The position numbers and the translations under genes are program-made. The notes under the pieces are model-generated. The model saw only the letters and a program-made list of their open reading frames with translations. It had not been told where the DNA came from and searched no databases. From IMG/VR virus record IMGVR_UViG_3300020392_000010, positions 21,192-85,191 of that record: 64,000 nucleotides of DNA; one strand, given 5' to 3'. The stretch is from a virus. This document shows positions 12,982 to 42,490 of this stretch, piece after piece (positions within the stretch are counted from its first letter, which is position 1; each line of letters starts with the position of its first letter).

Positions 12982-13287
12982 TTAATGGTTATTTTTGTAA
13001 TCTACGAGAGCGGTTATTACGTCTGTGAACTGGGCACTATTTAAATTTACTTTTAAATTTGAATGCTCTTTATTAATAAAATTTTCCGCTTCTCTTCTAA
13101 GCTTTTCGTATGAAGTTTTTTCTTTAACAGGGTGTTTGTAAACCGAATCTTTAGTTTGCCTAAGTTCATTTATTGTTCTTTTTTTAACAGTCCTTGATTT
13201 GTAATCGGGCATCTTGTGAAAAAGCTTAGATTCGCCTGAAAAATCCATACCTGAAAAGCCTGGTTTTAATTTATTTTCTTCACTCAT
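12982..13287 (-). CDS. Unknown basic small protein
   Basis: 101 residues, Lys/Arg-rich in the middle (SRTVKKRTINELRQTK) with a helical C-terminus. No known family recognised. It precedes the endolysin with a 3-nt gap and is probably cotranscribed with it. Confidence 0.65.
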   Translation of the reverse strand: MSEENKLKPGFSGMDFSGESKLFHKMPDYKSRTVKKRTINELRQTKDSVYKHPVKEKTSYEKLRREAENFINKEHSNLKVNLNSAQFTDVITALVDYKNNH

Positions 13288-13318
13288 GTTTATAAAATTG
13301 TTTTAATATTATACTGTT

Positions 13319-13789
13319 TTAGGAAAAAAAGTTTATAAATTTATAGTAAGTTGATCCTACTTTAAAGTGATCTTCTGGAAAAACTTCATCTTGAGAAAGA
13401 GTTGAAACTATTTCATTCCCTATTATATTAGATTCGTCTTTGGTTTTAACATGTATATTAGGTTTATCTTTTCTACCTATTAAGTAATTTATTAAATCAT
13501 ACTTTTCAAAATCCTCTTTTTCTATTTTTAAACATTTATTAATGAATAGTGATGGGCATTTTCTAGTTCCTTTTCCAAAACCATTATAATACGATTGTTT
13601 TACGCAATTATCCTTACAGGTATTTAAAAAATTAAGATAGCCTTCCCTATCCTTGAAATTTATTATTGTAAAATTTCCAAGAGACTGTATACAATCTCTT
13701 ATAGAATTCCAGTTAGCATTAGAACTTGATTGTATGTCTTTCATTTCAAGATCATCAAACTCTTCAAAAACTTTTATGTACTTTTGCAT
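13319..13789 (-). CDS. Unknown protein with capsid-targeting-like start
   Basis: 156 residues. The start MQKYIKVFEEFDDLE resembles the KxYxxF...(I/L)xE leaders in this window, though the cleavage site is less clear. Four Cys lie in the middle (DCIQS, CKDNC, KCPS, KCLK gives five with the first). A late promoter-like AATAAATA lies 24 nt upstream on the minus strand, supporting late expression. Function unknown; an internal head protein is one option. Confidence 0.65.
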   Translation of the reverse strand: MQKYIKVFEEFDDLEMKDIQSSSNANWNSIRDCIQSLGNFTIINFKDREGYLNFLNTCKDNCVKQSYYNGFGKGTRKCPSLFINKCLKIEKEDFEKYDLINYLIGRKDKPNIHVKTKDESNIIGNEIVSTLSQDEVFPEDHFKVGSTYYKFINFFS

Positions 13790-13813
13790 GCTGTATTATA
13801 TAAAACTTTTTTT

Positions 13814-13821
13814 TATTTATT
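13814..13821 (-). promoter_or_regulatory. Late promoter-like element AATAAATA
   Basis: AATAAATA on the minus strand, 24 nt before the ATG at 13789. The same A-rich context (ACAAATAAATAAAA) is seen before the acidic gene at 3782. Confidence 0.45.
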
Positions 13822-13866
13822 TGTAAAACATATAGTATAATGGTACAGTTATAAAATAAAGCAATA

Positions 13867-14466
13867 ATGATAGTAATTATAGAAGGATCACAAGGGTCCG
13901 GCAAAACTCATATGATAAATTATTTAAAGTCAAACGAGTGGGGCGATAACGTATTATTTTACAAATATGAACACGTATCTCATATGAAAAACATGGGATT
14001 TGAAGACATGGAACCAAAGGACTCTTTTCACTATTTTACGCTATCTAATACACTTACTATTCTAGAGTTACATAAAACCGTTTTAAAAGATAAAATAATA
14101 GTATTTGATAGAGGAATATTTTCAGCATATGTGTGGTCTATTTTAAGAAATAGAATGGATAGAAGTAGGCTTAATAAAGAATTATCTAAACTATTAGATA
14201 GCTCTTTATATGAAAATTGTCATGTAATTAGAATAATATCTGAAAGTAAAGAAATAAGAGCGCACAGTGATATATTCGATACTTTTACAAATAATATAAA
14301 AGAAAATTTTTTATTTGACAAAGTATTCGAAGATAATATGGAAAATTTAGAATGTGATAAGCGAAATAATTCATATAATGAGATGATTAACTATAGGGAC
14401 TTTTTAAGCGAAGCTGTTATGATGAACATATTTAGTAAAAAAATTAATATAAATAAACTAAAATAG
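13867..14466 (+). CDS. P-loop kinase, thymidylate/deoxynucleotide kinase-like
   Basis: 199 residues. Walker A is GSQGSGKT at residues 7-14, and FDRGIFSAYVW (about residues 79-89) matches the DR-x-x-x-S/A motif of dTMP and deoxynucleoside kinases. The fold fits a nucleoside monophosphate kinase. In a phage with a dCMP hydroxymethylase, a kinase for the modified dCMP is needed (T4 gp1 does this), and this protein is a candidate, but substrate cannot be read from sequence. It is divergent from the 156-aa gene and followed after 10 nt by a CTS-type gene. Confidence 0.65.
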   Translation: MIVIIEGSQGSGKTHMINYLKSNEWGDNVLFYKYEHVSHMKNMGFEDMEPKDSFHYFTLSNTLTILELHKTVLKDKIIVFDRGIFSAYVWSILRNRMDRSRLNKELSKLLDSSLYENCHVIRIISESKEIRAHSDIFDTFTNNIKENFLFDKVFEDNMENLECDKRNNSYNEMINYRDFLSEAVMMNIFSKKININKLK

Positions 14467-14476
14467 TGTTTATTCA

Positions 14477-15022
14477 ATGAAAAATTTAGTAACCAAATAT
14501 AGCGATTTTATATTTGAAAAAAAGAAATCTTCTTTAAAAGGTATTTCTTCTGAAAATATTATTAAAAAAATAGAGGCAGTAATGGATGTATTGCCTAACG
14601 ATGTACAATTTGGAGTACCCTCTGATAATTTAGGCCAATCTACTTCCTATAAGTCTCCAGGTGACGCTATTCAAAGAATAAAAGATATCACTCATTACTA
14701 TAATAAGAGAAAAGAAGATGTTAAATTCTACTGCTGGTCTATTACTTTTAAAGGAGACTTTAATGCTTCACAAGAACTTGAAGATAAAATGGAAGAAGCA
14801 GATGGATTATTTCATGAAGATAAGGCTAAGTATGGAAAAATAGACATGATAAAGGTTAGAGATTATGTTCAAACAAATCCAGAGGACGCAGATGAATTTA
14901 AAAGTTTTTCAATATCATTAGATAGCGCCTCTTCTAGAAAATTTGGTATGAAACTATCATCTGGAACTTCTAATGATAAAACAAAAGAGAAAGAATCAGA
15001 AGAATCTGAAGATGAATTTTAA
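14477..15022 (+). CDS. Unknown protein with capsid-targeting-like start
   Basis: 181 residues. The N-terminus MKNLVTKYSDFIFEKKKSS fits the leader pattern KxxxxYxxFIxE, with I-F-E as a possible prohead-protease site. The C-terminus is a Ser/Glu/Lys acidic tail (KEKESEESEDEF). The middle, with FYCWSITFKGDFNAS, looks folded, alpha/beta. It lies between the P-loop kinase and the ligase/nucleotidyltransferase gene. No family recognised; packaging into the head is inferred from the leader only. Confidence 0.65.
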   Translation: MKNLVTKYSDFIFEKKKSSLKGISSENIIKKIEAVMDVLPNDVQFGVPSDNLGQSTSYKSPGDAIQRIKDITHYYNKRKEDVKFYCWSITFKGDFNASQELEDKMEEADGLFHEDKAKYGKIDMIKVRDYVQTNPEDADEFKSFSISLDSASSRKFGMKLSSGTSNDKTKEKESEESEDEF

Positions 15023-15047
15023 AATATAAATTACTTAAAAAACAAGT

Positions 15048-16961
15048 ATGGCAGGAATAAGACACTTAAAAGAAGTCCATGATAAAATGGGAGAAGACTT
15101 CTTAAATAAATTATTTAATGAGTACCTTATAGTTAATGAAAAAGTAAATGGAAGTTTTCTAGGATTTAAAAAAGACAGAGAAAATGACGAATTTAAATTC
15201 TTTAATAAGAGAAACGAAATAGGTTACATAGATAGGGTCTTATCAAAATTTTATAACGATCCTATTAACCATATTAAAAATTTAGAAAAAGACAAGATTC
15301 AAAAAATTCCATCGAATATGTATTTTGGTTTAGAATACATATCTAATACCTCATCAAATGTAGAAGATTATGGAAGATTACCGAAAAATGGATTATTACT
15401 TAATTTTATACACGAATTAGACGAAGAAGGTGGGGTAATAAAAACAATACAAGATAAACATATACTAGATGAATGGGCTAATTTTTTAGAAATAGATGGA
15501 CCAACTATAGTTTTTGAAGGAAAATTAAACGATGATCAAAAAGTTGAAATCATGGATTTTATATACAGCCCTGCTGAAGAACTATTAGAAAAATTTAAAA
15601 CGAGATCTTTTATAAAATACGTTATATCTATTTTAAATAAAGATTTTAAAGAAAGTTTTTTAGAAAATAGCATAGTTAGAGATATAAACGGATTAGTGTT
15701 TAGATTTTACGAAGGGGATAGAGAAAATCCTAGTTCAAAATCTTTTCTTGCTAAATTAATAGACCCTATATTTCAAAATAAAATGAGTACCCAAGAGGTA
15801 AAAAGAGAAGAAAATAAATCTCAAGATTATACATGGTTAATTGTAATAGATTTAATGAATTTTATAGAAATGTATGACCTAAAAACAATCAATAGTTGGA
15901 AAATAGTAGGAGATTCATTTCAAGAAAGATATGTTAAATTTGTAAATAGAGTATTTAGAGAATTTATAGATAAGTATAAAGACAAATACGAAGGAATACA
16001 ATTAAATAAACCTGAGTTTCTAGATAGTGATGAATTTGATCTAAATATGGACATGATAAATGATCCATATATTATAGATTTAATAAAAGAAAGCGATACA
16101 AATAAAGAAATTTATAAAATCCTATTAAACTTTTTTAGAAAAAAAAGAAAAAAAGTAAATTCTAACCTATTTGATAGTAATCTATTAAAGCAACTAAATA
16201 TACAGGTTGATAAGATAAAAAAGATTTTGTTGAAAGAAAAGGTTTTTGAAGGGTTTTTTCCAACGTTTAACGAGTATGTAGGCGAATCAGGAGAGTTTGA
16301 ACCAATGACAATTCAAGGTTTTTCAAAAGAAAAAAGATCAATAGCTAAGCCTAAAAAAGTAAATCTGCTAATAGGCGATTTTCAACCTATACACTTAGGG
16401 CATATAAAAGCTGCCGAAAAATTAAAATCTAAAAACAATTTTCCAGTAGTATTAATAGCAGTTGTTAAAAATGAAAAAAATAAGAATAATCCATTTTCAG
16501 AAGCATCTATTAAAAAAATGCTAAATGACGTTGAACAAGAATATGGAAGCTTTATTGAAAAGGCAATTATATTAAAAACAGGTGGAATAGAAGAAATTAT
16601 AGGTTCTTTAAAACCATCTTATGTACCTATATTATGGGGCACTAATAAAAATAGACTAAATAGATACGCTATTCAATTAGGGTATTTAAAAAAGAGAGAC
16701 GTTTCACTTGACTTAAATAAGGATTTTAAGCTAGTTGAAATACCTAAATTTCAATCTTCATCTGAAATAAGAAATATTATAAAAGATGAAAAGTACAAGG
16801 AGTTTAAAAGACTTGTACCAGATTCAGTAGTTTCTAATTTTTATAATTTAAAAAAAGAAATAGATCAATTAAATGAATCTAAAAAAGAAACTATTTCTGA
16901 GATAAATAATAAAGAATCTAATATCTCAGAAAATGAAAAAGAAATCAAAGAAGAACAGTAG
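15048..16961 (+). CDS. Fusion of nucleic-acid-ligase-like domain and HxGH nucleotidyltransferase
   Basis: 637 residues in two enzymatic parts. Residues about 1-275 resemble an ATP-dependent RNA/DNA ligase: motif I EKVNGS (K32), motif III YFGLEYIS, motif IV DINGLVFRF and a motif V-like SFLAKLIDP. Residues about 435-600 are a nucleotidyltransferase of the HIGH superfamily: LLIGDFQPIHLGH (H449, H452) and the C-terminal SSSEIRNI, as in NMN adenylyltransferases and cytidylyltransferases. A helical linker joins them and includes FFPTFNEYVGES, reminiscent of the head-targeting leaders. Roles in nucleic-acid repair and NAD(P)/cofactor metabolism are inferred. Confidence 0.7.
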   Translation: MAGIRHLKEVHDKMGEDFLNKLFNEYLIVNEKVNGSFLGFKKDRENDEFKFFNKRNEIGYIDRVLSKFYNDPINHIKNLEKDKIQKIPSNMYFGLEYISNTSSNVEDYGRLPKNGLLLNFIHELDEEGGVIKTIQDKHILDEWANFLEIDGPTIVFEGKLNDDQKVEIMDFIYSPAEELLEKFKTRSFIKYVISILNKDFKESFLENSIVRDINGLVFRFYEGDRENPSSKSFLAKLIDPIFQNKMSTQEVKREENKSQDYTWLIVIDLMNFIEMYDLKTINSWKIVGDSFQERYVKFVNRVFREFIDKYKDKYEGIQLNKPEFLDSDEFDLNMDMINDPYIIDLIKESDTNKEIYKILLNFFRKKRKKVNSNLFDSNLLKQLNIQVDKIKKILLKEKVFEGFFPTFNEYVGESGEFEPMTIQGFSKEKRSIAKPKKVNLLIGDFQPIHLGHIKAAEKLKSKNNFPVVLIAVVKNEKNKNNPFSEASIKKMLNDVEQEYGSFIEKAIILKTGGIEEIIGSLKPSYVPILWGTNKNRLNRYAIQLGYLKKRDVSLDLNKDFKLVEIPKFQSSSEIRNIIKDEKYKEFKRLVPDSVVSNFYNLKKEIDQLNESKKETISEINNKESNISENEKEIKEEQ

Positions 16962-32497: not shown

Positions 32498-33355
32498 TTA
32501 TTTTCTAAGAGATTTCATTTTTTCAAGTTCTGATCCTATTACTTTTCTTGGACCATACCCTGACATAGCTTTTTCTATGTCTCTAATACCTTTTACTAGT
32601 TTTATAAGTCCGCCCGGTTCAACTGAAGCCATTTGATCAGAACCCCATAATGTTCTGTCTAATGTAATATGCCTTTCTATCCAAGTAGCACCTATTGGAA
32701 TAGTAGCCATTGTAGTGACTAATCCAAATTCATGCCCTGAATATCCAACTTCTGATTCTGTATTTTTAATAAGCCATTTTATATAGCCTAAATTAAGTTC
32801 ATTTATAGGCGAAGGATATGTTGAATTGGTGTGCATTATTACTTCTGGTTTACAGGTTTTAATGCACTTTTGAACCTCTTCTTCTGTACTCATTCCGGTG
32901 CTTATTATCAAAAAATCAGACTTGTCTTTTGCATACGAACATAGGTCAATGTTTGTTATTAAAGCAGATGGAATCTTCATAATAAAACTACCATGGTTAG
33001 AATAATTATTGTCTGTAATAAAGTCAACGGATAACTTATCCCAAACTGAAACAAACCAACCTATTTCTTTTTCTTGACAATACCTGTCTATTTCGTCAAA
33101 CTCTTTCTTACCAAATTCTATATCATGCTTATACTGAATATATGTAATTTCTTCTTCTCTCCATGGAACACGCTTAGGTTTATTTTTTTGATCATCAGGT
33201 ACGCATATATCGGGTGTTCTTTTTTGAAATTTTACCCAATTACAACCTGCTACACACGCTGCGTCTATTAGTTTTTTTGCGTTATCTAAAAACTTAGATT
33301 TATCGTTTCCATATGCATAATTTATGCCTATTTCAGCTATTATTTTTACAGCCAT
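32498..33355 (-). CDS. neuB: N-acetylneuraminate (nonulosonate) synthase NeuB-like
   Basis: 285 residues. NeuB TIM barrel with GCNWVKFQKR, MHTNSTYPSP, VGYSGHEFG and IERHITLDRTLWGSDQ, the conserved active-site elements for condensing PEP with N-acetylmannosamine or a related sugar. Common NeuB proteins of about 340 residues end in a SAF antifreeze-like domain; this one stops before it, so the usual partner-subunit lid is missing or comes from elsewhere. Works with NeuA downstream in the pathway, encoded 1 nt upstream. Confidence 0.9.
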   Translation of the reverse strand: MAVKIIAEIGINYAYGNDKSKFLDNAKKLIDAACVAGCNWVKFQKRTPDICVPDDQKNKPKRVPWREEEITYIQYKHDIEFGKKEFDEIDRYCQEKEIGWFVSVWDKLSVDFITDNNYSNHGSFIMKIPSALITNIDLCSYAKDKSDFLIISTGMSTEEEVQKCIKTCKPEVIMHTNSTYPSPINELNLGYIKWLIKNTESEVGYSGHEFGLVTTMATIPIGATWIERHITLDRTLWGSDQMASVEPGGLIKLVKGIRDIEKAMSGYGPRKVIGSELEKMKSLRK

Positions 33356-33356
33356 G

Positions 33357-33992
33357 CTATTTTTTATTTTTTTTAAACTCGTTTAAATCATCTAACGTAT
33401 CTACATCTATCACTTTTTTATTTATGGGTAAAAAATAAGTATTGTTATTATATAAGTTATTATTTAAATTATTTATTACATTTGACTTAAACAAACATAT
33501 ATAATGACTTAATTCAAAGCATTCAGGGTAATCTTGTCTTCTATATAAATCATGATGAAAAAGTTGAGAACCTTTGTTATTTTTTTCCTCTTTTAGCATC
33601 AAAAAAGGACTAATATCTAGTGGGTGCTTACATAATAAAGAGTCTAGATTAAGCGAGTCAAAACAAACCATAGCTGTTTGAACATCTTTCCATTTCCTAA
33701 GCGGATAGGTTAAATATAACATTAAAATCGTTTCATCTAGTATATTTAAAGTATCTATAGTATATTTCATTATATCTTTAGAAGAAGCTTTATCAGAAGA
33801 CACCTCTGGTGTTCTATTTAAAACATTAAACTTATATTTAATGGCCTGTTTTTTTATATGTTCGTCATCTGTAGTTACATATGTTAAGTGCTTCATTGCT
33901 TCTGGTATAATATTAGCAGTATATTCAAATAGTTTTCTATTTTTTAAAGGAACGCCTTTTGAACCTTTTCTAGCTGGTATAATTATTTTCAT
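33357..33992 (-). CDS. neuA: CMP-sialic acid synthetase NeuA-like
   Basis: 211 residues. IPARKGSKGVPLKNRK is the NeuA/KdsB CTP-binding motif; VTTDDEHIKK and LYLTYPLRKWKDVQ follow in family order. It activates a nonulosonate with CTP to the CMP donor. The start overlaps the previous stop and the stop lies 1 nt from neuB, so the operon is coupled. Somewhat shorter than bacterial NeuA (about 230 or more). Confidence 0.88.
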   Translation of the reverse strand: MKIIIPARKGSKGVPLKNRKLFEYTANIIPEAMKHLTYVTTDDEHIKKQAIKYKFNVLNRTPEVSSDKASSKDIMKYTIDTLNILDETILMLYLTYPLRKWKDVQTAMVCFDSLNLDSLLCKHPLDISPFLMLKEEKNNKGSQLFHHDLYRRQDYPECFELSHYICLFKSNVINNLNNNLYNNNTYFLPINKKVIDVDTLDDLNEFKKNKK

Positions 33993-35669: not shown

Positions 35670-37673
35670 GTGAATAATTCAAGCTTAAAACCAAGTAATT
35701 TCATAGACGTTTCTGATAAAAAAGAAAATGATTTAGTATTGATCGTTGAAAACGTAGGTGAAAAACTTAATGTAAAAACCAATGAAACTAACAACACTAT
35801 TTTAGAAGGTGTATGCGCAGTTTTTGGACAAAAGAATAACAATCAAAGAGTTTACGAAAAAGATGAATACTTGCCTCATCTAGAATACTTAAAGGAAAAA
35901 ATTAAGACAAGGCAACTTGTTGGAGATTTAGATCATCCGCCTTCTTTTGAAGTTACTCTTAAAAGCGCTTCTCATATAATTGAAGGCTTAGACCATGATG
36001 GAGGAGATAAAGTAAACATTAAACTTAGAATTTTAGAAAACACGCCAAATGGAAAAATTGCAAAAGCATTAATAGATGGAGGAGTTAATATATCTATTTC
36101 ATCGAGAGCAGCAGGTCAAGTTTTAAACGAAGGTAAAGTTAAACTTCATAGAATATTTACATACGATTTAGTTGCTGAACCGGGGTTTACAGAAGCTGTT
36201 TTAAAGAAAACAGTTAACGAATCCTTAAAAGAAAATTTCGAAATGATAACTGAAAATTATAGTTTATTAAAAGAAAATTCTTTTATAAATAAAGAAAAGT
36301 TAGAAGATATCTCTGAAAATTTAAATTTTTCAAATAATTATAAATTTTACAAGATAAATAACAAAAATAATAAAGAGCTGACTAATAGTTTAAGCAATCA
36401 AAATAATAAGAGCAAAATGAACGAGTATGTTAATAAAAATGATATGAATCATTATACTGAGATAGTTAAAGAGAAATTTGAATCATTACAAGCTGAAATG
36501 GACAAAATTAAGTCTGTTAATGAAGCTGATTCAAAAGAGGTGAAAACAACAGATGTTTCACCAACTTCAGGTATTGGAAAATACGTTAATTATTTAGCTG
36601 AAAAAGTAGAAAACTTAACTAAGTACACTGACTACTTGTCTGGTAAATTAAACCAATCTGTTAAGTACACTGAACATGTAGCCGAAACTACTAACAATAG
36701 TATAGAATATCAAAACTACATTGGTGAAAAACTTAATCAGAGTTTAAATTATCAAAACTATTTAGGTGAAAACTTAAATAAAAGCATTAATTACCAAGAT
36801 TATTTAAAAGAGAACTTAAATAAAAGTATTAATTATCAAACATACCTTGCTGAAGAATTAGATAAAGGCATTCAATATACTGAATATGTAGCAGAAGGTG
36901 CTAATAAAGGAATTGAATTTGCTGAATATATTGCTGAAAATGCTCAAATGAATAGAGAATACGTTGAATACGTAGCAGAAAAATCTTCAAAAGGAATTAG
37001 TTATGCTGAATATATTGCTGAATCATTAAACTCAGGTAAATTTACTCCTAATTCTAACTTATTAAGCAATGTTAGCGGATTAAATGAAAACAAGCAAATT
37101 GAAATGATTACTGAAGGAATAGATGCTGTAATAAACACAGTCAAAAGTGAATCAGCTAGTGCCGTACTAGAAAATAAATATCCTTTCTTAAAAGTATTAT
37201 CTGAAAAGAAAAAAGAAGCATTTTATGATCTAGATACTAATACTAAACAAGCTGTTGTAGAAGCAGTTAGAGCTTCAGTATGGTTTAATGAAGCAGATGT
37301 AACTGGTATTATTAGTGCAGTCGTAGAAAACGCTAATAAGTCTATTCCAAACCATCTTAGATATATGCCAGATGAGTATAAAGCATCTTGGGAGAAGATG
37401 AATGAAGCTGAAAAAAATCAAATTCATACTAAAACTCAACTTTATACTTTAAATACTCCTTATCAAGTTAAATCTTTCTGGGATGAAATAGATTTCAGAG
37501 GAATTAATGAAAGAATTGAAAGAGAAAAAGAAAATAGAAAATTACAACAAATCAACGAGAGCCAAAGTACAGAAGGTGCAATCCCGGTAGACAGGGTAGT
37601 TGATATGACGAGAGGTTACTCTCAGACTTACATAGACTCTCTTATGAGAGGTGCGGAAAATCGCAACAAATAA
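35670..37673 (+). CDS. Prohead protease gp21 fused to scaffold gp22-like core protein
   Basis: 667 residues, GTG start. Residues about 35-185 are a T4 gp21-type (S77) protease: NQRVYEKDEYLPHLEYL, GDLDHPPSFEVTL (H89), NISISSRAAG (Ser 142-145) and YDLVAEPGF (D166). An Asn-rich linker (about 225-249) follows, then a scaffold part with eleven exact-length 14-residue repeats (305-458) and a helical C-terminus ending in LQQINESQS, a likely I-N-E cleavage site. In T4, gp21 and gp22 are separate genes. An internal ATG at residue 250 may yield free scaffold. Confidence 0.85.
   Translation: MNNSSLKPSNFIDVSDKKENDLVLIVENVGEKLNVKTNETNNTILEGVCAVFGQKNNNQRVYEKDEYLPHLEYLKEKIKTRQLVGDLDHPPSFEVTLKSASHIIEGLDHDGGDKVNIKLRILENTPNGKIAKALIDGGVNISISSRAAGQVLNEGKVKLHRIFTYDLVAEPGFTEAVLKKTVNESLKENFEMITENYSLLKENSFINKEKLEDISENLNFSNNYKFYKINNKNNKELTNSLSNQNNKSKMNEYVNKNDMNHYTEIVKEKFESLQAEMDKIKSVNEADSKEVKTTDVSPTSGIGKYVNYLAEKVENLTKYTDYLSGKLNQSVKYTEHVAETTNNSIEYQNYIGEKLNQSLNYQNYLGENLNKSINYQDYLKENLNKSINYQTYLAEELDKGIQYTEYVAEGANKGIEFAEYIAENAQMNREYVEYVAEKSSKGISYAEYIAESLNSGKFTPNSNLLSNVSGLNENKQIEMITEGIDAVINTVKSESASAVLENKYPFLKVLSEKKKEAFYDLDTNTKQAVVEAVRASVWFNEADVTGIISAVVENANKSIPNHLRYMPDEYKASWEKMNEAEKNQIHTKTQLYTLNTPYQVKSFWDEIDFRGINERIEREKENRKLQQINESQSTEGAIPVDRVVDMTRGYSQTYIDSLMRGAENRNK
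36582..37043 (+). repeat. Eleven tandem 42-bp (14-aa) coding repeats in scaffold
   Basis: Each unit follows (Y/F)xx(Y/H)(L/V/I)x(E/G)xxxxxxx, for example YQNYLGENLNKSIN. Eleven units without any gap cover residues 305-458. Period 14 equals two heptads, so a continuous coiled-coil rod is expected. The DNA copies have diverged at synonymous sites, so the repeat is maintained at protein level. Confidence 0.95.
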
Positions 37674-37690: not shown

Positions 37691-39394
37691 ATGTCACGTA
37701 CAAAAGTTTTTAAACGTACTTCAGATTCTAGAATCCTTAATACTTGGAAGCCATTATTGGAAAGCCATGGTGTTAGTGCTGAAAGCGGGAAACAAGAGTG
37801 GTTAGCAGAATATGCTCACAACCATGCTATTTTTGATAATAGCGCTCCTGTATTTGAGCAAACTGCACCTGGGTTGTTTTTTCAACAACCAGGTTCTGTA
37901 TTAGGTAGAGGCGCTGCTGTAGCACCTACTGCCAGTCAGACGCCTTTTTCAGATGCTGGTGTTAAAGGTTCTTATGCCGATTCTGGTTCTGGAGATAAGT
38001 TTCCATCGTTACTTCCAGTTGCTATTCAAGTAGCTGCAAAAACGATTGGGTTTGATCTTGTTCCTGTTGTGCCTATGGATTCTCCTGTTGGGTTCTTACC
38101 TTACTTAGATTATTTATATGCAGGCGGTCGAACAGATTCAGAATTTGAACCATATATGGTTAAAATTGAAGGAGCAACAGTAGATGCTCTTGAAACTGCA
38201 GGTTTCGCCGGAGTTAATGACGGAACAAACGCCAATCAGGCAATCACAATCGCTGGTGCTCAAGGTTCTTACGAATTAGTAGGATTCTCAAGAGTAGATG
38301 GTTTATTAATAATGAAAGTTCTTAATGACGGTCTTAACCCAGCTGCAAGTGTTGATGCTGACCTTTCAGGTAATAATATTACTGCGATTGGTTCAACGAA
38401 CGGTACTTTCCAAATAGCTGGAGCGGTATCATTGGTTTCTGCTTTAGAAAACCATATCTCTGGATTTACATCTCAGTCAACTGAGGTTCAAGATCCTGAT
38501 TTTGTTGGTCCTTACTTACCTGAAACAGGTGGTGTTCCTGGATCAATGACAAGAGAACAAAGTGAATTGTCTAAATACAGACAAATGGGTCTTAGAATGT
38601 TCACTAAATTTGTTGAAGCTAAATCTGATCAAGTGTCTATCTCAGCATCTGTTGAGCAGATCCAAGATCTTAACAGAGTTTGGAACTTCGACGTTATCTC
38701 TATGTTAGAGAACGTTGCAGTTAACGAACTTGCACAGTCTATCAACAAAAGATTGGTTGACAGAATCTTCACATTAGCTGATGATCACAATGTTGAAGTA
38801 AACATGGTAGAGGGCGCTGGAATCACTACACTAGACTTAAATGCTGGTACCGGTGGTTTTGAGAACACTTCTACTCTTCAAAGAAGATTAGTCACTAAGA
38901 TTCTTGAATTAGCAAACTTAATTTACCATAGAGGTAGATTTGGTGCTGGTACATTCATGATTACCAACGGTAGAGTTGCATCTGCATTAGCTGATGTTGC
39001 TGGTTACTCAATTGCACAGGCTCCATCTGATATGGGCGGTGTTGCTGGTAACCTATACCCAGCTGGTAAAGTTTATGGTGTTCAAGTATATGTTGATCCT
39101 AACTTAAGCTTTGGAGATTCTAGAATCTGCATTGGTCGTAAAGGATCTGATGAAGAACCAGGTGTTAAATTCTTACCATATATTATGGCTGAGTCTTTAC
39201 AAACTATCTCAGAAGGTACTTTCTCACCAAAAATTGGAATGAAATCACGTTATGCGATTACTGAAGCAGGATGGCATCCAGAAACTCAATATGTAAATAT
39301 GGAAGTTACTGGAGACTTAGCTGTTCTTACAGGCGGAGCTGCCCCAAGTGGACCAGCTACACCATCACCAGTTGCACCAATAGTTGCACCATAA
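37691..39394 (+). CDS. gp23: Major capsid protein, T4 gp23-like
   Basis: 567 residues (T4 gp23: 521). T4-type features: PIRSL-like N-terminal arm, EWLAEYAHNHA with a probable protease site after L-A-E (residue 40), GAKSDQVSIS-like core (FVEAKSDQVSISASVEQIQDL), ANLIYHRGRFGAGTFMITN and GMKSRYA..EAGWHPE. Codon use is visibly less A/T-biased than neighbours, as expected for the most abundant phage protein. Ends in an Ala/Pro-rich tail and is followed by a strong terminator. Follows the protease-scaffold gene by 17 nt. Confidence 0.95.
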   Translation: MSRTKVFKRTSDSRILNTWKPLLESHGVSAESGKQEWLAEYAHNHAIFDNSAPVFEQTAPGLFFQQPGSVLGRGAAVAPTASQTPFSDAGVKGSYADSGSGDKFPSLLPVAIQVAAKTIGFDLVPVVPMDSPVGFLPYLDYLYAGGRTDSEFEPYMVKIEGATVDALETAGFAGVNDGTNANQAITIAGAQGSYELVGFSRVDGLLIMKVLNDGLNPAASVDADLSGNNITAIGSTNGTFQIAGAVSLVSALENHISGFTSQSTEVQDPDFVGPYLPETGGVPGSMTREQSELSKYRQMGLRMFTKFVEAKSDQVSISASVEQIQDLNRVWNFDVISMLENVAVNELAQSINKRLVDRIFTLADDHNVEVNMVEGAGITTLDLNAGTGGFENTSTLQRRLVTKILELANLIYHRGRFGAGTFMITNGRVASALADVAGYSIAQAPSDMGGVAGNLYPAGKVYGVQVYVDPNLSFGDSRICIGRKGSDEEPGVKFLPYIMAESLQTISEGTFSPKIGMKSRYAITEAGWHPETQYVNMEVTGDLAVLTGGAAPSGPATPSPVAPIVAP

Positions 39395-40421: not shown

Positions 40422-41612
40422 TTATAAGTTTAATTTTAAAGTTTTATTCACCTTAGATTCTATAGTAGGCCTAAGTTCCATACTGTGTGATTTTTTTACA
40501 TAATCAAATAAGGCTAGTTCTTTTGATTTTGCTTCTATTTCTATATCAAAAAGATTGCCAATTTGAGGAATAGCGTCATATAAGTAATCTGCATGAGACC
40601 TTTCCATAACAGAACTATCTTCATTTAGTCTTTTACTGCTACTAAAGTGAGCAAGTGGACGCACACTAGCTGGCCAGGTTGAAGCAGCTAGTTTGGCAGC
40701 TTTTTCTTGAGATAAACCACCTGTGCAAAACAAGTGATGAAAGAAATCGAATGTAATAGGAATATTAATATGTTTGTATAAACCTTCGTATAGATCAATT
40801 ACGCTATATTGACTAGCTTTATCGTCATTTTCTACAACAAGACGCGCTTTAGTAGATTCAGAAAGTTTACTAAAGTTTTTTACAAACCTAGATAATGTTT
40901 CTTTTTTATTACCATAGGCACCTCCTACATGAATATTTAAACTATAGTTGTGATTTTTAGGTAAGCCCATTAAATCTAGTATAGTAGAATGCTTGTCTAA
41001 TTCGTTTATAGAGTTGTAAACTATTTTTTCGTTTGGACTAGGAAGTACACAAAATTGACCTGGATGAAAGCCTACTCTTAGATTGTTTTCCAGTATGTAC
41101 TTTCCTATTTCTGCAAGTTTGCTTTTTATTTGATTGTAATTTGGTAATTGATTGAAATCATATTCGCTCATCCATGGAAAAAGACTACTAGACATTCTGA
41201 ATATTCTTATATTGTTTTTAGCATTCCATTTAAGAATAACTAAAAGATCTTCTACATTTTGTATAGCTAGGTTACCTGCTTTTTTACATAGCCATTCCAT
41301 GTAACCTTTTTTTGAAACATCATAATCTGATATTTGAACTGTTTTATCTACTAATGTTCTTTTAGTTATAGATTTAAAGGTTCTAAAGCTAGTGTTAAGG
41401 GAACTAGCAGACTTTCCTTTTTCATCATATACTAGAGTTGAATCATACCATTTTTCTATTATGCTTTCGTCTGTTATATGTACTTGATTACAATTTTTAT
41501 GTAACCATTTATTAACGCTATATTCAACAACAGGACTTTGCATTCCCCTGTTAGTTGATATATTATGTTCTTTCAATGTAAGGTTTATACAACAGTATCC
41601 TAAGTTATTCAT
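40422..41612 (-). CDS. uvdE: UV damage endonuclease UvdE-like
   Basis: 396 residues. Family motifs LGYCCINL at the N-terminus, RIFRMSSSLFPWMSEY, VGFHPGQFCVL, LNIHVGGAYG, LVVENDD and FDFFHH provide the metal ligands (His/Glu/Asp) of the TIM-barrel UVDE. It nicks 5' to UV photoproducts. A region of about 75 residues between the first and second conserved strands is longer than in bacterial homologues. First gene of a leftward four-gene set. Confidence 0.9.
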   Translation of the reverse strand: MNNLGYCCINLTLKEHNISTNRGMQSPVVEYSVNKWLHKNCNQVHITDESIIEKWYDSTLVYDEKGKSASSLNTSFRTFKSITKRTLVDKTVQISDYDVSKKGYMEWLCKKAGNLAIQNVEDLLVILKWNAKNNIRIFRMSSSLFPWMSEYDFNQLPNYNQIKSKLAEIGKYILENNLRVGFHPGQFCVLPSPNEKIVYNSINELDKHSTILDLMGLPKNHNYSLNIHVGGAYGNKKETLSRFVKNFSKLSESTKARLVVENDDKASQYSVIDLYEGLYKHINIPITFDFFHHLFCTGGLSQEKAAKLAASTWPASVRPLAHFSSSKRLNEDSSVMERSHADYLYDAIPQIGNLFDIEIEAKSKELALFDYVKKSHSMELRPTIESKVNKTLKLNL

Positions 41613-41667
41613 ATTTATATTATACTAATAATTTATGATATTATACACTAAATTAAAAAATAGTTTA

Positions 41668-41675
41668 AATAAATA
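41668..41675 (+). promoter_or_regulatory. Late promoter-like element AATAAATA
   Basis: AATAAATA, 20 nt before the ATG at 41696 of the zinc metalloprotease gene, in the divergent gap with uvdE. Spacing equals the other late elements. Confidence 0.5.
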
Positions 41676-41695: not shown

Positions 41696-42490
41696 ATGAA
41701 AAATTTTATAGAAACATTTAAGATATTTGAATCAAAAAATCGGGTAAACGGATTAGAAGAGTTTATTAACACGTTAAAGGAAAATTTTAAAGAATATCAC
41801 AGTGTAATAGATGATTTAAAATCATACATATTAAAATCTGGATGCGAAGCTATTGGGTTTGACACCCTATATGGTGCTTCTGGAATATCAAAAACCGATA
41901 AATGTGTAATTGCAGATAAAGTACTTAAAGAACCTATTGAAAAAGCACTTTACGTAATACTTCACGAAGTATCTCATCAGTATCAATATTCTAAGTATGG
42001 AAAAAACGTAATGTGGGATTCATATAATTCTAATATAGATATAGAAAAAGCGGTCGACCTGCTAATGAATATTGAATTAGTAGCAGATAGATTAGCTATT
42101 ATCAAAACTAAACATTTATTAGATTCAAATGGCGTAAAAAACTACAAAGAAGTAACGGCAGTCTATCCTAAAATGTCTAGGCAATATTTTAAAAGTCATT
42201 TAGAATCCTTAAGAAAAAGCGTAAATGATAAAAAAATAGAAGACGTAGATGGTGTAAACAATATGATGCACAATAAACTTAAAGAAAAACCAAAACCTAT
42301 TGTATTTAAAAATCATAATAGACCAAAGCCTAAGCAATTTAAAAATCAAATAGAAATAGATAGAATATTAGATAAATTATCCGATACAGGCTGGTCTAGT
42401 TTAACTGACTCTGAAAAATCTACATTAAGATCTGCTAGTAATAAACCAAGTAGTAAGCCGCCTAGTAGCAATCAGTTAAACCTATTTTAA
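41696..42490 (+). CDS. Zinc metalloprotease-like protein with capsid-targeting-like start
   Basis: 264 residues. MKNFIETFKIFESKN resembles head-targeting leaders (I-F-E site). Zinc motif VILHEVSHQYQ (H90, E91, H94) with a downstream IELVADRLA (E127/D131) as third ligand. After a Pro/Lys-rich linker comes DKLSDTGWSSLTDSEKSTLRSAS, a short helical module seen at C-termini of Bacteroidota proteins. The last residues QLNLF match the bacterial sliding-clamp-binding motif. A packaged and injected protease is a possibility (inference). Substrate unknown. Confidence 0.7.
   Translation: MKNFIETFKIFESKNRVNGLEEFINTLKENFKEYHSVIDDLKSYILKSGCEAIGFDTLYGASGISKTDKCVIADKVLKEPIEKALYVILHEVSHQYQYSKYGKNVMWDSYNSNIDIEKAVDLLMNIELVADRLAIIKTKHLLDSNGVKNYKEVTAVYPKMSRQYFKSHLESLRKSVNDKKIEDVDGVNNMMHNKLKEKPKPIVFKNHNRPKPKQFKNQIEIDRILDKLSDTGWSSLTDSEKSTLRSASNKPSSKPPSSNQLNLF

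Follow-up and report, generated by a model that had tools for sequence, protein, structure and literature searches.

A predicted zinc metallopeptidase with a probable head-targeting leader, encoded downstream of the head genes of a T4-like phage

What does the open reading frame (ORF) at positions 41696-42490 encode, and would its product travel in the phage head? The original prediction had read this ORF of the plus strand, which encodes a 264-amino acid product, as a zinc metalloprotease made late and equipped with a head leader. It lies in a stretch of 64,000 nucleotides that we analyzed as a whole (the window), part of an 85,191-base virus record. The gene contains the following features:

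41696..42490, plus strand: coding sequence, comprising the leader, a zincin-type metallopeptidase domain, a linker and DUF6576
41696..41731, plus strand: leader MKNFIETFKIFE, codons 1-12, ending in I-F-E, with a predicted prohead-protease cut after E12
41963..41977, plus strand: HEVSH, residues 90-94, in helix 81-101 of the predicted model
42074..42088, plus strand: ELVAD, residues 127-131, in helix 116-144 of the predicted model
42338..42442, plus strand: DUF6576 C-terminal domain, residues 215-249 (PF20216, 33.5 bits versus a cut-off of 27.3)

Between pairs of orthologues dN/dS is 0.11-0.21, indicating that this ORF is a gene under purifying selection and not a chance motif. The proposed zincin site, HEVSH with the downstream ELVAD, was borne out by conservation: all 21 aligned members of the family keep H90, E91, H94, E127 and D131, and the equivalent residues are invariant in 46 diverse aligned members, in which an HExxH motif is followed by a putative third-ligand Glu on the next helix (helices 81-101 and 116-144 of the window protein). 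From this pattern H90 and H94 are predicted to be zinc ligands and E91 the catalytic residue, with E127 as the probable third ligand. Residues S48, C50, Q95, Q97, K100, G102, Y110 and Y157 are also invariant in the 21 members. C50 sits in an S-x-C motif, and the cysteine switch described for Wss1 (PMC4559962) is one example of a role that it may have. While the zincin part of the predicted domain composition stood, the C-terminal DUF6576 domain had been overlooked. Among the aligned members this domain is present in the window clade only.

We searched for relatives of this protease by an iterated scan of viral contigs, which yielded 83 loci. No relatives were found in the 84,980 cellular genomes, 72,556 plasmids or 50,697 annotated phage records searched, the last of which gave just one match with E = 6. 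Pfam, PHROG and NCBIfam contained no usable model for the family, and the PADLOC defence models produced no confident match. As judged from sequence, this is a phage-only and previously unnamed family of putative zincins.

Two confident AlphaFold models, one for the window protein (pLDDT 83.7) and one for a distant relative (pLDDT 93.4), share the order of secondary structure, and the VIA-align rows of both are nearly all HExxH metallopeptidases (IrrE/PprI, M1 aminopeptidases, Wss1, ArdC, BlaR1 and BepA). The highest Z-score was 6.1 and all rows were below 8, so that a fold class can be assigned to the protein but not a family. The IrrE/PprI (M78) rows (Z 5.9-6.1 over 95-96 residues) tie with those of other families, and the rows also include Wss1 (5.2), the 6mdx crosslink-repair protease (5.1), ArdC (5.0-5.7) and PprI with ssDNA (5.8-5.9). 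At the sequence level, the SprT-like model (PF10263) scored 14.7 bits versus a cut-off of 25.6 (E 0.028), proabylysin was a weak match of the family profile (E 0.0044), and CapP matched one relative weakly (E 0.014). Because these matches are weak or tied, the protein was not assigned to the SprT-like, ArdC or M78 families. With IrrE/PprI, SprT/Wss1 and other minimal zincins, which are among the best structural rows (Z 5.0-6.1), the family shares the pair of active-site helices, but it differs from them in that Z stays below 8, no match exceeds a curated cut-off and members occur in viral contigs only. The zincins of phage polyvalent proteins and ArdC are likewise similar in having HExxH plus a downstream Glu and in their proposed delivery with DNA (PMC5512222). 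In contrast to those domains of giant polyproteins, most members of the family are small, stand-alone and leader-bearing, and no ArdC-N domain was recognized in them.

These resemblances bear on where an injected protease would act. Like SprT/Wss1-type or ArdC-type minimal zincins, it could work at the incoming phage DNA, stripping bound or crosslinked proteins or blocking restriction, and both the weak similarity to SprT-like proteins, proabylysin and CapP and the structural rows of Wss1, 6mdx, ArdC and ssDNA-bound PprI are consistent with such a role. However, these rows tie in Z-score with unrelated M1 aminopeptidases, SprT remains below the Pfam cut-off for the window protein, and no DNA-binding domain was recognized in it. 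We consider action at the phage DNA unlikely.

To place the gene in its genome, we analyzed the head genes and promoters of the window:

35670..37673, plus strand: 667-amino acid ORF, the N-terminal part of which is a T4 gp21-like prohead protease (PF03420, Peptidase_S77, E 7.6e-11; phrog_207)
37691..39394, plus strand: gp23-like major head protein (phrog_138, E 1e-37)
41664..41672, plus strand: late-promoter-like element TTTAAATAA, with its TAAATAA core 30 nt upstream of the ATG and one mismatch to [TG]ATAAATAA
41617..41628, minus strand: TTAGTATAATAT, matching the TAGTATAATAT box, probably the early promoter from which the divergent UvsE gene is read

The metallopeptidase gene is located downstream of the gp21- and gp23-like genes on the same strand, and in locus L019 the orthologue immediately follows a head gene. 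The window phage thus encodes a gp21-type (S77) prohead protease, as do nine others of the 18 records tested (10/18 in total; the remaining eight may be fragments). In annotated phages, the best listed relatives of the head protein belong to metagenomic phages that are uncultured (32-38% identity) and to Prevotella Lak phages (32%). The T4-type late element [TG]ATAAATAA precedes 13 of the 49 plus-strand genes (1.2 expected) versus 1 of the 67 minus-strand genes. The late element claimed for the target gene proved to be the near-consensus TTTAAATAA, with its core at the usual distance of -30. An identical element is present ahead of the orthologue in L002; none was seen before those of L012 or L019, and among more distant orthologues the box cannot be made out clearly. 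The TAGTATAATAT box, on the other strand, lies ahead of five minus-strand genes (0.1 expected) and of no plus-strand gene. The divergent neighbour at 40422-41612 encodes a UvsE-type UV-damage endonuclease, which contains an insertion of about 75 residues near the N-terminus relative to L002 and L004 (396 versus 320-322 amino acids). A NeuB-like sialic acid synthase and a cytidylyltransferase are encoded on the minus strand at 32498-33992.

DUF6576 was detected in one of 14 control genomes, a Bacteroides, and it forms the end of a Bacteroides rhomboid protease as well. Such occurrences suggest that the host belongs to the Bacteroidota and that the domain may perhaps serve in docking. With DUF6576 proteins such as the Bacteroides finegoldii rhomboid protease the window protein shares a C-terminal domain of about 35 amino acids, above the Pfam cut-off, whereas outside this domain it bears no relation to rhomboids. 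DUF6576 also forms the C-terminus of an unrelated 178-amino acid phage protein (G006:C1:49749-49835, L040). The window phage is T4-like, and its host is probably among the Bacteroidota. The open-access literature that we searched yielded no account of leaders in phages of Bacteroidota, nor of DUF6576.

We next turn to the N-terminus, which had been read as a packaging-type leader. A 10-20-residue leader ending in L/I-x-E is present in the window protein, in which MKNFIETFKIFE is followed by S13. Using a profile of eight other leaders of the same record, which were picked by eye, MKNFIETFKIFE ranked 9th among the 116 genes of the 85-kb record (P 0.001 versus random residues and P 0.007 versus its own residues shuffled). 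The leader type is therefore shared with unrelated proteins of the same phage. The window-clade leaders (L053, L056, L058 and L059) gave no significant match among neighbouring genes within 5 kb, and it is genes in other parts of the record that support this leader type. Leaders upstream of the window are borne by a cell-wall hydrolase (PF07486, L034:2726-3529) and by proteins of 1384 and 650 amino acids (L034:9046-13200 and 13254-15206), which had no Pfam or PHROG match; the hydrolase is the sole functional annotation obtained for the other leader-bearing ORFs of this phage.

Relatives carry several unrelated leader types, including MNLQENIRRILKEET, MKTIRLTESDLVKLIKRVINEET, MKIVLTENQYKSIILEET, MKYILTESQYNLLLEQ and MYLSESYKNRLKLLSGVILEDG. 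At 25 of 55 loci the leader matched the N-terminus of another gene of that locus better than any of 100 random draws of internal segments did (the rows being partly non-independent). The L100 leader, for example, scored 65 versus 11.7 expected, and its gene adjoins a 619-amino acid ORF with a nearly identical leader. Of 49 members, 43 have L/I-x-E within the final 14 residues of the leader, versus 17.3 +/- 3.2 expected from shuffling, mostly 3-6 residues ahead of the conserved domain. Together with three fusion ORFs (below), the several leader types, the 25/55 loci and the 43/49 members give the packaging-leader reading strong comparative support. The six leader labels require 10 changes on the tree, where the minimum possible is 5, and leaders differ even between L082 and L100, which are sister rows. 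Leaders are absent from 7 of 53 tree rows, the grouping of which is weakly supported. Of these leaderless members, L018 and L021 sit among tail-fibre-like or structural ORFs, and G005, one phage of the group, encodes S77. The existence of leaderless relatives indicates that the leader is neither obligatory nor intrinsic to the family: in these members it may be optional, the virion may be reached differently, or the protein may act differently.

The leaderless relatives would also fit with the N-terminal stretch being no packaging signal, the protein then being an ordinary late intracellular protease, or tail-associated in those relatives. We regard this as very unlikely, because leader types switch across the tree while the protease domain is kept, the leaders resemble those of neighbouring genes, and the boundary motif L/I-x-E is strongly enriched. 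The N-terminal tag thus probably loads the protease into the head.

In three fusion ORFs the protease follows another domain, and a leader-like stretch is kept at the junction (IINEET, ILREET and VLKEET). Each begins with a leader-like N-terminus and has a second such stretch internally, ahead of the protease:

L091:2300-3283, fusion ORF
L099:4044-5564, fusion ORF
L124:3951-5546, fusion ORF

The L099 fusion starts with about six repeats of KWTEDEIKKEASKYxSxxEF, and the N-terminal domain of the L124 fusion contains a motif that, in sequence, is reminiscent of ADP-ribosyltransferases. Throughout loci L029 and L031, ORFs tagged with leaders (MNLQEHIRRVLKEE and variants) are densely arrayed, mostly without assigned function. 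Such numbers of leader-tagged proteins in related phages, and the in-head processing proposed for polyvalent-protein zincins such as P1 DdrB (PMC5512222), would suit a packaged protease that is active within the head, where it would process itself or other cargo while DNA is being packaged or earlier. Yet leader removal is already explained by the S77 prohead protease, the junction sites of the three fusions resemble S77 sites, and the T4-like phages of the annotated collection manage without this zincin, all of which makes a function within the head quite unlikely.

Sequence, predicted structure and comparative genomics give good support to a late zincin that carries a head leader, and T4 provides the closest precedents. 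T4 proteins are targeted to the capsid by a 10-residue sequence, and gp21 cleaves after L/I-X-E (PMC9026906). The injected internal proteins IP1-3 inhibit GmrSD restriction enzymes (PMC12373910), and Alt is a further injected head protein (PMC9503650). As in T4 IPI-III and Alt, a short N-terminal leader ending in L/I-X-E is found on otherwise unrelated proteins, together with a late-type promoter, an S77 prohead protease and T4-type head genes. The differences are the leader sequence itself (MKNFIETFKIFE), the cargo, a zinc metallopeptidase, the several unrelated leader types of the relatives and the three fusion ORFs with an internal leader. The protein is probably a variant of the T4-type head-targeted internal protein.

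Analogy with the internal proteins of T4 and with Alt makes it plausible that the protein is packaged and injected and that it cuts a host protein. We infer that the gene would be expressed late from its T4-type promoter together with the head genes, and that the 12-residue leader would steer the protein into the prohead core, where the S77 protease would cut IFE12|S13 and release a metallopeptidase of about 250 residues within the head. This enzyme would leave the head with the DNA and enter the new host. There it would act as a zinc peptidase, that is, an enzyme with H90, H94 and E127 holding the zinc and E91 as the base. Its target would be a host protein, most likely with a part in defence or regulation, and the DUF6576 tail may aid in finding it. 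We lean slightly towards this whole course of late synthesis, leader packaging, cleavage, ejection and host-protein proteolysis being correct.

For large phages, probably of Bacteroidota, the leaders may amount to a modular cargo code, a proposal for which we see an even chance. Exchangeable, phage-specific L/I-x-E leaders would load arrays of effectors into the head, a leader inside a fusion would allow one polypeptide to be cut by the prohead protease into several cargos, and the metallopeptidase family would be a cargo repeatedly re-tagged between phages. If this is true, fused cargo may be cut apart within the head, and the family supplies a specific candidate for the injected proteases that have been proposed for phages but seldom put to the test. 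Moreover, the leader rule (a type common to unrelated genes, and L/I-x-E immediately ahead of the folded domain) would predict injected proteins from sequence alone, and would be usable in uncultured large phages, whose virion content is otherwise unknown.
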